A stretch of DNA of 64,000 nt from Thioclava dalianensis (GTDB lineage: Bacteria; Pseudomonadota; Alphaproteobacteria; Rhodobacterales; Rhodobacteraceae). A model generated the notes under the pieces. It was given only the letters and a program-made list of their open reading frames with translations. It was not told the DNA's origin and did not search any database. Both the position numbers and the translations under genes were made by a program. The stretch covers positions 62,001-126,000 of the forward strand of contig NZ_JHEH01000008.1 of assembly GCF_000715505.1 (NCBI RefSeq). The letters run 5' to 3'. Positions 3,910 through 9,287 of this stretch are shown here, piece after piece (within the stretch, counting starts at the first letter, position 1; the number at the start of each line of letters is the position of its first letter).

Positions 3910-3979
3910 TGTCGCAAGCGGGCGATGCGCATGTGCGCGTGGCGGCTAGGGTCAGACCAATGCAATGGCGGAGGCGATC

Positions 3980-5536
3980 ATGGCCGATTCGGAACTGGGC
4001 GAACGGGTGACGCGGCGTGCACGCGGTGGCGGCGGGGCGGCTCGGCGCGCCGAGCGCACCGCCGTGCGCTTCGAATTTGCGCGCTATATCGAGCGCAATA
4101 TTCCCAATCTTGAGATCCTCAACGAAGAGGCGCTCCAGATCATCGAGACCAATGCCGAGACGGTATTGGCCGAGATCGGCGTCAATTTCGTCGAGAACCC
4201 GGAGGCGCTGGAGCTGTGGCGCGAGGCGGGGGCAGAGATTGATGGCGAGCGTGTGCGGATCCCGCGCGGGCTGGCGCGCAAGCTCTGTGCCACAGCGCCC
4301 AGCCAGTTCACGCAGGTCGCGCGCAACCCCGAGCGCAATGTTGAGATCGGCGGGCGCAATCTGGTGCTGGCCCCGGTCTATGGCCCTCCCTTCGTGCGCG
4401 ACAGCGCCAATGGCCGCCGCTATGCCACGATCTCCGATTTCCGGAATTTCGTGAAGCTGGGGCAGATGTCGAAATGGCTGCATCATTCGGGCGGCACCGT
4501 TTGCGAGCCGACAGATGTGGCCGTCAACAAGCGCCATCTCGACATGCTCCACGCGCATATGACTTTGTCGGACAAGCCCTATATGGGCTCTGTGACCGAG
4601 CCGTCGCGCGCGGCTGACTCCGTCGAGATGTCGAAAATTCTCTTTGGCGATCAGTTCGTTGATGAGAATACGGTGATGACCTCGCTGATCAATATCAACT
4701 CGCCTTTGACCTTTGACGGCACGATGATGGGCGCGCTTGAGATCTATGCGCGCGCAGGTCAGGCCTGCATCATCTCGCCCTTCATTGTGGGCGGGGCGAT
4801 GGCGCCGGTCACGGTGGCGGGCACGCTCACGCAGGTGCTGGCCGAGGTGCTTGCGGGCGTGGCCTATTCCCAGCTCGTGCGGCCCGGCGCGCCGGTGATC
4901 TTCGGCGCTTTCGTGACTTCGATCGACATGAATTCTGGCGCGCCGACCTTTGGCACGCCGGAGGCCGCGCAGATCACCCTCGGCGCAGGCCAGCTGGCCC
5001 GGCGTCTGGGGTTGCCCTATCGCTCGGCCGGTGGCTTCACCGGCTCGAAACTGCCCGATGCGCAGGCGGCCTATGAAAGCGCCAACACGCTCAACACGGG
5101 CCTGCTCGCAGGCGTGAACTTCATGCTGCATTCCTGCGGCTGGCTGGAGGGGGGTCTGGTTTCGTCCTACGAGAAATTCGTGATGGATGCCGATCAGCTT
5201 GGATATATTCACAAGCTTGCCGCCGGTATCGCGATGGATGAGAACGCGCAGGCGATGGAGGCGATCCGCGAAGTGGGTCCGGGCGGGCATTACCTTGGCT
5301 GCGCCCATACGCAGAACAACTACCTCGAGGCCTTCTGGCGCACCAATCTGTTGGACTATCGCCCCTTCGAGACCTGGGACGAGCAGGGCGCGCCCGACAC
5401 GATGGCGCTCGCCGAAAAGCGCGTGGCCAAGCTCTTGGGGGATTACCAAGCGCCCGCGCTCGATCCAAGCACCGCCGAGGCGCTCGACGCCTATGTCGCG
5501 CAGAAGAAGGCCGCCGTGCCCGACGCCTTCCTCTAG
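3980..5536 (+). CDS. Trimethylamine methyltransferase family protein (MttB-like, non-pyrrolysine)
   Basis: Member of the MttB superfamily of corrinoid-dependent methyltransferases, which move a methyl group from a quaternary or tertiary amine to a corrinoid protein. The 518-residue reading frame has no in-frame amber codon, so it lacks the pyrrolysine of archaeal MttB. Non-pyrrolysine relatives include the glycine betaine methyltransferase MtgB, but the substrate here is unknown. The start at 3980 is supported by GGAGG about 6 bases upstream; an in-frame ATG at 3965 is an alternative. The N-terminus is Arg/Gly/Ala-rich (residues ~10-25). No corrinoid protein or second methyltransferase is adjacent. 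Confidence 0.85.
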   Translation: MADSELGERVTRRARGGGGAARRAERTAVRFEFARYIERNIPNLEILNEEALQIIETNAETVLAEIGVNFVENPEALELWREAGAEIDGERVRIPRGLARKLCATAPSQFTQVARNPERNVEIGGRNLVLAPVYGPPFVRDSANGRRYATISDFRNFVKLGQMSKWLHHSGGTVCEPTDVAVNKRHLDMLHAHMTLSDKPYMGSVTEPSRAADSVEMSKILFGDQFVDENTVMTSLININSPLTFDGTMMGALEIYARAGQACIISPFIVGGAMAPVTVAGTLTQVLAEVLAGVAYSQLVRPGAPVIFGAFVTSIDMNSGAPTFGTPEAAQITLGAGQLARRLGLPYRSAGGFTGSKLPDAQAAYESANTLNTGLLAGVNFMLHSCGWLEGGLVSSYEKFVMDADQLGYIHKLAAGIAMDENAQAMEAIREVGPGGHYLGCAHTQNNYLEAFWRTNLLDYRPFETWDEQGAPDTMALAEKRVAKLLGDYQAPALDPSTAEALDAYVAQKKAAVPDAFL

Positions 5537-5556
5537 GCGCATTCTCATCGCGCAGC

Positions 5557-5587
5557 GGGGGCAGGGGCCGGTCAGGCTCTTGCCCCC
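5557..5587 (+). terminator. Weak hairpin after the MttB-like gene
   Basis: A 7-bp perfect stem (GGGGGCA / TGCCCCC) encloses a 17-base GC-rich loop, 20 bases after the mttB-like stop. No T-run follows, so it is only a possible terminator or a transcript-stabilising structure. Confidence 0.3.
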
Positions 5588-5638
5588 AAGCCGGGCGCGG
5601 CCTAGTTTGCCGCCAATCACAGCCGCCCGGAGACCGCT

Positions 5639-6858
5639 ATGAGCCAAAAACGCAACATTTTCGAAGAGGTCGGAGAGACGAGCGCCAGCACCCGCGCCGC
5701 GGCGCAGGGCGGGATGATCGACGCCAAGCCGCGCGGGGCGCGTCGCAGCATTCGGATCTGGCTCTTTATCCTCTTCGCGCTGGTCGTGGCGATGATCGCG
5801 GTGGGCGGTGCCACGCGTCTGACCGATAGCGGTCTGTCGATCACCGAATGGAAGCCGATCTCCGGGGCGATCCCGCCGATGAACATGGCGGATTGGCAGG
5901 GGGAATTTGCCAATTACAAGCAAAGCCCGCAATTCGAATATCTCAATCCGAACATGACCTTGAGCGAGAATTTGCCAATTACAAGCAAAGCCCGCAATTC
6001 GAATATCTCAATCCGAACATGACCTTGAGCGAGTTCAAGGGGATCTTCTGGTGGGAATGGGGCCACCGCCAACTGGGGCGCACGATCGGTCTCGTGTGGT
6101 TCGTGGGCTTTGTCTTCTTCTGGCTCACCAAAAAGATCCCGCCGGGCTGGTGGGGGCGGCTGTTCAGCCTTGGCATTCTTGGTGGGCTGCAAGGGGCGAT
6201 TGGCTGGTGGATGGTCGCATCGGGCCTGACCGGGCGGATGACCTCGGTCGCCTCTTATCGGCTGGCGACTCATCTGGGGCTCGCCTTTATCATCCTCGGT
6301 TTGATCGCGTGGTTCGCCTTCCAGCTTGGCCGACCGCAGGCACAGCTGTTACAGGCGCGTAGGCTGTCGGAGAAGCGCCTCACGCATCTGGGCACAGTGA
6401 TGATCGGGCTGGTCTTCGTGCAGATCCTCTTGGGCGCGCTGACCGCCGGGATCGATGCCGGGCTCGCCTTCCCGACATGGCCCTCAATGAACGGGCAGTT
6501 CCTGCCCTCTGAGAGTTTCGATTTCACGCCTCTATGGCGCAACTTCTTTGAAAACCCTGCGCTGGTGCAGTTCAACCACCGTATGGTGGCCTATCTGGTG
6601 TTCTTCATCGGACTTTATTCGGCATGGCGGGCGCGCAGCTCTGCGCATCAATCGACTCGTCAGGCCTTTGCGATGATGGGGGCAATGATCGTGGTGCAGC
6701 TGTTGCTGGGCATCACCACCGCACTTGATCTGGTGCATTACTGGTGGCTCGGCTCGATCCACCAGCTGGGCGCCGTTGTAACCTGGGTCTTGGTGATCCG
6801 CGCCCGTCACATGGCGCGTTTCCCGATGGTCCGGTCCATTCGGGAGGGACGAGCATGA
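5639..6858 (+). pseudogene. ctaA: Heme A synthase (COX15/CtaA), frameshifted by a 65-bp tandem duplication
   Basis: Heme A synthase converts heme O to heme A for aa3-type cytochrome oxidase in the inner membrane. The N-terminal part (5639-6022) holds helix 1 and [16 protein letters not shown]. The rest continues in another frame through WEWGHRQLGR, FNHRMVAYLVF and IHQLGAVVTWV, which carry the heme-ligand histidines. Between them lies a perfect 65-bp tandem duplication. Because 65 is not a multiple of 3, it breaks the frame. Deleting one copy gives exactly 385 codons (384 residues), a normal COX15 length. As written, frame 1 stops at 6020-6022 (TGA), overlapping an ATG at 6019 in the downstream frame. 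The gene is either disrupted or misassembled. Confidence 0.92.
5903..6033. repeat. 65-bp perfect tandem duplication inside ctaA
   Basis: Bases 5903-5967 recur as 5968-6032, with the match running one base further (66 identical positions at an offset of 65). The unit encodes the residues around [20 protein letters not shown]. There are no mismatches, implying a very recent event, slippage between short GA-rich ends, or an assembly error. Confidence 0.97.
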
Positions 6859-8321
6859 GCGCGTTTGACGAACTGGTTGCGCATCAGCGCGAAACCGAGG
6901 CGCTGGGAAATATCGCGGGCCTTCTGAGCTGGGATCAGGAAGTGATGATGCCGCGCGGGGCGGCCGATCAGCGCTCTGAGGAGATGGCAGCGATTGAAAG
7001 CGTGCTGCATGCGCGCCGCACCGATCCGCGCATTGCGGACTGGCTGGCGCGCGCGGAGGCGCGCGATGAGGCGGGCGGGCGGATGCTCGATCTGATCGCG
7101 CATAGCTACAACCGCAGCACCCGCATCCCGGCGCGGCTGGCCACCGAGCTTGCGCGGCTCACCTCGCTGAGCCAGGGGATCTGGGCCGAGGCGCGCGCCA
7201 ATGAGGATGCGACCGCCTTCCTGCCCACGCTCGAGGAGGTCGTGCGGCTCAAGCGCGAAGAGGCGGCGGCGGTGTCCGAGGGCAACCTCTATGACGCGCT
7301 GCTCGATGACTATGAGGCAGGCGCTACCGCCAAGGAGCTGGGCGCGATGTTTGATCGGATGCGCGGACCGCTGGTGGCCCTGCGCGACCGGGTTCTGGGC
7401 TCGGATGTGCGCCCCGAGCCGCTCGATATGGTGTTTCCCGAAAATGCCCAGCTGCGGCTGGCGCGGATCTGCGCGAGCGCCTTTGGCTATGACTGGACGC
7501 GCGGGCGGCTGGATATGTCGGTGCATCCGTTCTCCTCGGGTGGCGGAGATGACGCCCGGATCACGACCCGGATTTCGGAGAGCGAGCCCTTCGGCAATAT
7601 CTATTCCACGATCCACGAGGTCGGCCACGCGACCTACGAGCAGGCGATTGATCCGGCCTACCGCTTCACCCCGCTGGGGCGTGGCGTCTCGATGGGCGTG
7701 CATGAAAGCCAAAGCCGGATCTGCGAGAACCAGCTTGGCCGCTCGGCCCCTTTCACCGGCTGGCTACATGGTCGCATGACCGACGCCTATGGCGATCTTG
7801 GCATTGATGAGGTTGCCTTCCACGCCTTGGTGAACCGGGTCGAGATGGGTTTCATCCGCACCGAGAGCGACGAGCTGAACTACAATCTCCACATCATGCT
7901 GCGCTTCGATCTGGAGCGGGATCTGATCTCGGGCAAGCTGGAAGTGGCAGATCTGGAAGAGGCGTGGAACACACGCTTTGAGCAGGATTTCGGCGTGAAA
8001 GTCAGCAAGCCCAGCCAAGGCTTCTTGCAAGACGTGCACTGGTCGCTGGGCCTGTTTGGCTATTTTCCGACCTATGCGCTTGGCAATGTCTATGCGGGTT
8101 GTCTCAATCAGGCGATGCGCGCGGCCACGCCGGGTATTGATGCGGGGCTTGCGCAAGGCGATGCGAGCGCGGCGAAGGGCTGGCTCGACAGCCATGTCCG
8201 GCAGTTCGGCGGCCTGCGCCCGCCGCGTGAGACCATCACCTATGCCTGTGGCTTTACGCCCAGCGAAGCGCCGCTTCTGGCCTATCTGACCGAGAAGTTC
8301 GAAGCGATTTACCGGCTGTAA
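6855..8321 (+). CDS. Carboxypeptidase Taq family metallopeptidase (M32)
   Basis: Cytoplasmic zinc metallocarboxypeptidase that removes C-terminal residues from peptides. The 488 residues match the usual M32 length. The zinc site HEVGH is at residues 254-258 and the third ligand Glu284 is in HESQSR, as in Thermus and Pyrococcus enzymes. The start overlaps the ctaA stop as ATGA and is preceded by CGGGAGGGACG, so the two genes are co-transcribed. A frameshift in ctaA could reduce coupled translation of this gene, although its own ribosome site is strong. Confidence 0.93.
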   Translation: MSAFDELVAHQRETEALGNIAGLLSWDQEVMMPRGAADQRSEEMAAIESVLHARRTDPRIADWLARAEARDEAGGRMLDLIAHSYNRSTRIPARLATELARLTSLSQGIWAEARANEDATAFLPTLEEVVRLKREEAAAVSEGNLYDALLDDYEAGATAKELGAMFDRMRGPLVALRDRVLGSDVRPEPLDMVFPENAQLRLARICASAFGYDWTRGRLDMSVHPFSSGGGDDARITTRISESEPFGNIYSTIHEVGHATYEQAIDPAYRFTPLGRGVSMGVHESQSRICENQLGRSAPFTGWLHGRMTDAYGDLGIDEVAFHALVNRVEMGFIRTESDELNYNLHIMLRFDLERDLISGKLEVADLEEAWNTRFEQDFGVKVSKPSQGFLQDVHWSLGLFGYFPTYALGNVYAGCLNQAMRAATPGIDAGLAQGDASAAKGWLDSHVRQFGGLRPPRETITYACGFTPSEAPLLAYLTEKFEAIYRL

Positions 8322-8342
8322 CCTTCGCGGGGCTCGGGCATA

Positions 8343-8379
8343 AAAAAAGGCGCGCAAGCCATTGGCTGCGCGCCTTTTT
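8343..8379. terminator. Bidirectional intrinsic terminator
   Basis: Stem AAAAAGGCGCGCA / TGCGCGCCTTTTT with a short inner AGCC/GGCT pairing. It has A- and T-runs on both sides and lies between the convergent M32 peptidase and aldolase genes. Confidence 0.88.
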
Positions 8380-8393
8380 CATCTCTCGTGATT

Positions 8394-9287
8394 TCAGCCC
8401 GCGACAGAGGCCGCGTGGATTTCGGTGATCGCCTCACCGATTTTCGCGTTGAAGTCGTCGTCCGACTGCTGTGCGCTCAGCCCTTCGGTCAGCGCGCGCG
8501 AGAAAGAGGCGATCATGCCGGTATTCTGCGCAAGCCGCGCATTGGCCTCGTCGCGCGAATAGCCACCCGAGAGCGCCACGACCTTGAGGACGCGCGGGTG
8601 ATCGACCAGCGGCTTATAGTGGTTCGCGGTTTCGGGCAGCGTCAGCTTCAGCATGACCTGACGGTCTTCGGGCAGGCTGTCGAGATGGCTCAGGATCTCG
8701 GCCAGCAGCATCTCTTCGGCCTCGGCCTTATCCGAGATTGAGATCGTCACCTCGGGCTCAAGGATCGGCATCAAGCCGTGATCGAGAACCTGCGCGCCAA
8801 GTTCGAATTGCTGGGCCACGATGGCCTTGATGCCGCCGGGATTGGCCGCCGAGATCACCGAGCGCTCTTTGGTGCCAAAAATCCCCGCCTTCGCCGCGCG
8901 CGAGAGCAGATCGTCGAGGCCCGGGATCGGCTTGAGCATCTGCACGCCATGCTCTTCGGCCTCTAGGCCCTTGTCGATCTTGAGGAAGGGCACCACACCG
9001 CAGGTTTCCCAAAGATAGGTGGCGGTGGGGGTGCCATCGATCGCGCGGTCCATCGTCTGCTCGAACAGGATCGCGCCCACAACCTTGCCGCTCGAGAAGG
9101 CCGGTGCCTTGATGATCCGGCTGCGCATCTCGTGAATCAGATCGAACATTTCGCTCTCGGATCCGTAGGCGTCCTCCTCGATTCCATACAGCCGCAGCGC
9201 TTTCGGGGTCGAGCCGCCCGACTGGTCGAGCGCTGCGATAAAACCATCCCCTTCACGCATTTTCTCGGTTTGCTGGGCATTCGACAT
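8394..9287 (-). CDS. Fructose-bisphosphate aldolase, class I
   Basis: Schiff-base (metal-independent) aldolase that splits or forms fructose 1,6-bisphosphate in glycolysis, gluconeogenesis and the Calvin cycle. The 297-residue protein carries the family landmarks ALDQSGGSTPKAL near the N-terminus, ILFEQTMD, and the lysine strand VMLKLTLPE. The start at 9287 (MSNAQQTEKMREGDG) is chosen because AAGGAT lies just upstream and the longer frame (to 9410) has no aldolase similarity. It follows pgk on the same strand with a 197-bp gap containing a strong hairpin, so it probably has its own promoter. Confidence 0.92.
   Translation of the reverse strand: MSNAQQTEKMREGDGFIAALDQSGGSTPKALRLYGIEEDAYGSESEMFDLIHEMRSRIIKAPAFSSGKVVGAILFEQTMDRAIDGTPTATYLWETCGVVPFLKIDKGLEAEEHGVQMLKPIPGLDDLLSRAAKAGIFGTKERSVISAANPGGIKAIVAQQFELGAQVLDHGLMPILEPEVTISISDKAEAEEMLLAEILSHLDSLPEDRQVMLKLTLPETANHYKPLVDHPRVLKVVALSGGYSRDEANARLAQNTGMIASFSRALTEGLSAQQSDDDFNAKIGEAITEIHAASVAG

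Follow-up and report, generated by a model that had tools for sequence, protein, structure and literature searches.

The window analysed here, a 64 kb stretch of the Thioclava dalianensis draft assembly, carries ctaA, the gene for heme A synthase, in two reading frames. In the sequence file, a 65-base unit is present as a perfect tandem pair inside ctaA, and the gene is split by this repeat (Table 1). Tandem Repeats Finder reported the pair at 5903-6033 with a period of 65, 2.0 copies, 100% matches, 0 indels and a score of 262, and the remaining two rows across the 64 kb window scored 50 and 57. Letter comparison at an offset of 65 showed 66 consecutive identical positions from 5903, and the homology at the duplication junction amounts to one base. 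As the remaining direct repeats within 4000-9000 are far shorter (20-29 nt, with 68-85% identity), a chance origin of the ctaA repeat is excluded. These results bear out the earlier note, which had described a perfect 65-bp tandem duplication breaking ctaA, with 66 identical positions at an offset of 65. Its statement that removal of one copy leaves 385 codons also holds, by arithmetic only (1220 - 65 = 1155 bases, stop codon included); the CtaA proteins of the 16 relatives for which a length was obtained comprise 384 aa (14 relatives) or 380 aa (two relatives).

In the upstream piece, the match to CtaA consists of the approximately 110 codons ahead of the frameshift, and the tail is out of frame. 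The protein encoded by the gene 3' of ctaA gave no NCBIfam match; its HEVGH motif suggests what we take to be a zinc metallopeptidase. The other neighbour of ctaA, at 3965-5536 of the window, encodes a 523-aa trimethylamine methyltransferase-type protein (TIGR02369, 275 bits, below the cut-off of 525).

Table 1. Features of the ctaA locus (window coordinates) and tandem duplications of period 60-90 in the draft sample
Feature	Position	Strand	Period	Mismatches	Remarks
Upstream ctaA piece	5639..6022	+			127 codons, then TGA at 6020-6022
Copy 1 of the 65-base unit	5903..5967	+
Copy 2 of the 65-base unit	5968..6032	+			Extra matching base at 6033, the 66th identical position
Downstream ctaA piece	5968..6858	+			Copy 2 to the natural stop; within open frame 5830-6858
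ATGA	6019..6022	+			Upstream-frame stop overlapping ATG of the downstream frame
Gene 3' of ctaA	6855..8321	+			ATG overlaps the ctaA stop (ATGA); HEVGH motif
ctaA duplication	5903-6033		65	0
L125 duplication	L125:12367-12536 (G000:C2:13367-13536)		85	2	Frameshifts a transporter-like gene, presumably of EamA/DMT type
L186 duplication	L186:10164-10335 (G000:C1:250164-250335)		86	2	Inside a minus-strand gene, presumably resembling a gene transfer agent or phage tail gene
L205 duplication	L205:1741-1890 (G000:C22:2741-2890)		75	1	In frame, in a 432-aa open frame, presumably an SGNH-type hydrolase
L219 duplication	L219:13613-13758 (G000:C36:13613-13758)		73	1	Frame broken; presumably a lipoyl-domain acyltransferase gene

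Both pieces matched the Alphaproteobacterial CtaA family NF045570 of NCBIfam, the upstream piece with 169.5 bits (residues 1-110 on profile positions 1-110 of 380) and the downstream piece with 444.8 bits (profile positions 82-380 of 380), whereas the gene lies in two frames in the Thioclava dalianensis assembly. The whole-protein criterion of NF045570 is >550 bits, and the two pieces were scored separately, not as a joined protein. The downstream piece also matched Pfam COX15-CtaA with 281.6 bits. Across the whole genome (4,179,056 bases, 98 contigs), Pfam COX15-CtaA gave two matches, namely both ctaA pieces, and a second ctaA was not found. The identification of the gene as ctaA in the earlier note is right, and the intact second copy that it named as a possibility is not found in this genome.

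The same note had called for a comparison of the locus in close relatives. The best three named matches were those of Thioclava pacifica, T. atlantica and T. sediminum, which points to an environmental marine bacterium belonging or close to this genus. The results showed that ctaA is a single copy in one open frame in all of the 15 other genus genomes; in these, the match to the gene falls into two segments that adjoin at the repeated unit or close to it, the pattern expected of a single copy, and the duplication junction, with up to three mismatches allowed, occurred in none of them. A wider set of 95 relative loci was composed of 80 named loci (the best 80 of 563, ranked on resemblance to the downstream frame) and a single locus per genome for the 15 genus genomes, with some overlap between the two sources (19 genus loci represent 15 distinct proteins, and the 95 loci represent 89). 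All 95 loci contain one open ctaA frame, 93 with the expected motifs and two with a looser motif, and a split ctaA was found in none of the 95.

Near-invariant columns and substitution rates were compared with these relatives, loci L014 and L053 being omitted from the alignments. The upstream piece keeps 51 of 52 genus near-invariant columns and all 24 family-wide ones (89 distinct relatives), and the downstream piece keeps 137 of 138 and 77 of 77, respectively, where columns inside the duplicated stretch can be counted for both pieces. Against 11 distinct genus genes, dN/dS was 0.149-0.262 for the upstream piece (108 codons) and 0.083-0.148 for the downstream piece (296 codons). In 55 like-for-like pairs drawn from the 11 intact genus genes, the corresponding values were a median of 0.181 and a maximum of 0.362 for the upstream stretch, and a median of 0.112 and a maximum of 0.167 for the downstream stretch. 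Judged from these sequence comparisons, both pieces look as if they are under selection and free of decay. Given the dN/dS values and the intact conserved columns, the break in ctaA is therefore either very recent or not real.

Tandem duplications were then counted in a draft sample of 81 pieces (1,664,000 bases, approximately 40% of the draft, window included) and in a control sample of 134 pieces (1,611,940 N-free bases) made up of stretches of the near-complete genus genomes G012 and G003, the draft G004 and the 80 named loci. The result showed five duplications of period 60-90 with at most two mismatches in the 1.664 Mb of draft and none in the 1.612 Mb of controls (one-sided conditional p = 0.034, for a period range picked after seeing the data). 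The period is not a multiple of 3 in three of the four cases outside ctaA. At an identity of at least 95% and a period of 30-600, the draft sample contained these five, a tRNA-Asp array and no other tandem repeats; the array consists of four identical tRNA-Asp genes with a period of 104 (L124:5459-5847, G000:C1). A 50-base tandem duplication with one mismatch was seen in the control draft G004 (L224:4140-4239, G004:C1). The excess of duplications in the draft over the controls is modest.

The mismatches between the copies at L125, L186, L205 and L219 are not spread evenly. All six fall in the final third of the unit, for which the two-sided chance, assuming independence, is 0.0027. At four of the six, copy 1 has the same letter as the base just before it (p 0.038), against none of the six in copy 2. 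Both features resemble late-cycle Illumina errors, and phasing lag towards the end of a forward read by which the left piece was extended would give the copy-1 pattern. Relatives were aligned at one of these loci, L125, whose duplication was absent from all seven genus relatives in the alignment; at its two variant positions, the residues of copy 1 occur in none of the seven, and the first copy-2 residue is also present in one of them, G013. The L186 region has some match in 13 of the 15 other genus genomes, one of merely approximately 42 bases, and L205 has no match in these 15 genomes. A further region, L211:1340-2300 (G000:C28:2340-3300), which we take to be a toxin-antitoxin-type locus, contains pieces of two diverged copies that alternate at 84-95% identity with spacings of 73, 64, 226 and 74. 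This order is unlike the product of a single tandem duplication and looks as if both arms of assembly bubbles were placed end to end.

The simplest reading, and a probable one, is that the ctaA repeat is an artefact of assembly or gap filling. The earlier note had rightly listed an assembly error among its options, and this is now the leading reading because four comparable duplications, with mismatches resembling read errors, occur elsewhere in this draft. The five duplications in the draft sample against none in the controls, the clustering of the mismatches and the copy-1 letters, the absence of the L125 copy-1 residues from the relatives, the three periods outside ctaA that are not multiples of 3, the alternating order at L211, the undecayed state of both ctaA pieces and the occurrence of ctaA as a single copy in the 15 other genomes of the genus all argue for it. 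On the mechanism that we propose, the second copy in ctaA would most likely be absent from the chromosome. Where a contig broke off or a gap was filled, the left piece would end with the same 65 bases with which the right piece starts, and the two would have been joined end to end rather than merged, producing a false second copy; both the joining step and the assembler are inferred. In that case, the cell itself would carry a normal ctaA, one copy in one frame, as its relatives do.

Some observations weigh against an artefact. The ctaA copies carry no mismatch, so that the error signature rests on L125, L186, L205 and L219; the period-50 duplication of G004 makes the excess modest, and the sample covers approximately 40% of the draft. 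The ctaA case is like false duplication in short-read drafts in that near-identical short units occur several times in one draft with mismatches at one end, but differs from it in that the ctaA copies themselves are free of mismatches. In favour of an artefact, according to the available part of one study, its newly sequenced genomes of the genus were obtained by Solexa paired-end sequencing and assembled with SOAPdenovo 1.05 (PMC5508018), and it is our guess that this SOAPdenovo pipeline was also used for the Thioclava dalianensis draft. In the portions of the literature on short-read assembly that were consulted, a description of this exact end-to-end joining error was not found, and a term search of the accessible text of a review on in silico finishing (PMC5596377) gave neither 'duplicat' nor 'tandem'. 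If the repeat is an artefact, annotations of the draft would show frameshifts in ctaA and several further genes that are intact in the cell, and physiological claims such as a lack of heme A would be false. We suggest that drafts be screened for near-identical tandem units somewhat shorter than the read length with mismatches clustered at one end.

Alternatively, the duplication may be real, a recent spontaneous event from culture or from shortly before isolation that left an ordinary null allele and heme A-free respiration. We consider this unlikely, though deserving of attention. The undecayed pieces are what a recent event leaves, and the respiratory genes suggest that the loss could be tolerable, given a single ctaA and an aa3-type CtaD accompanied by other oxidases. 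Three COX1 homologues were found in the genome, namely CtaD, which barely exceeds its cut-off (678.4 bits, cut-off 670.75), a CyoB-like protein that has CyoB as its best match and falls short of the cut-off (859.4 bits, cut-off 1020.35), and CcoN, above its cut-off; two CydA genes scored above the Pfam cut-off. A UbiA-family gene is also present, with neighbours that we take to be cox11/ctaG-like and ctaC-like genes, and the aa3 pathway looks otherwise present. The aa3 enzyme is lost if heme A synthase is lost, and the four non-aa3 oxidase genes should, by family, not need heme A. For the CyoB-like enzyme, the heme type is deduced from the family that it matches best. Heme A is used by some related quinol oxidases; if this also holds for the CyoB-like enzyme, it would likewise be impaired by loss of ctaA. 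A real duplication would make this a naturally heme A-minus strain, with four oxidase genes predicted to be independent of heme A. Thioclava is known for sulfur oxidation; two weak matches to SoxB in this genome fall below the family cut-off and none lies above it.

Published cases lend a real duplication further support. In Xenorhabdus nematophila, spontaneous tandem duplications of 26-116 bp made up three of 25 distinct mutations that inactivated lrp in culture, according to the part of that study available (PMC6786866), and 65 bases is accordingly a natural size too, which counts against an artefact. The ctaA case resembles these duplications in unit length and in the disruption of coding sequence; as far as the same text describes them, the lrp cases came from sequencing mutants with a phenotype, whereas the ctaA case is one draft sequence with no phenotype. 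A Bacillus cereus ctaA deletion strain has also been obtained and lost caa3 activity, as stated in the available part of that report (PMC8835132). Against a real duplication, approximately 40% of the draft contains five such duplications, and in four of these the mismatches are error-like and gathered at one end; to explain this, many duplications would have to have arisen in a recent burst and then acquired point mutations.

The earlier note had also raised a reversible on/off state for oxidase choice, in which the copies would collapse by replication slippage and re-form, giving a mixture of heme A-plus and heme A-minus cells. Perfect tandem copies are unstable in principle, and duplication-based phase variation has been published for pneumococcal capsule genes (Waite 2001, 2003, as summarized in the part of PMC4022640 available), where the duplication likewise lies inside a reading frame. 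Unlike that system as summarized there, ctaA offers no evidence of two states, reversion or recurrence; the junction is absent from all 15 other genomes of the genus, all 95 relative loci have one open frame, and similar duplications with error-like mismatches lie elsewhere in the draft. The one-base junction homology shows nothing that would predispose the site to re-forming the duplication. In addition, eight Xenorhabdus lrp mutants, which may or may not have included duplication alleles, gave phenotypic reversions of which none was genetic (available part of PMC6786866). Support for a switch beyond the repeat itself is none, and we regard it as very improbable.

Least probable is a real duplication with a partly working split protein, which would be made by restart at the ATGA, or with a longer protein arising from -1 slippage where both frames are open (5848-6022); the upstream stop does overlap an in-frame ATG and the downstream piece retains all of the family-wide near-invariant columns that it covers, but no purine-rich ribosome site was seen by eye ahead of 6019, the split occurs in none of the 95 relative loci, and an ATGA by chance is not rare. 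The combination, in a strain with many alternative oxidases, of a real reversible aa3 switch with low-level split heme A synthase, made by restart at the ATGA at 6019-6022 when the switch is off, is likewise highly improbable.
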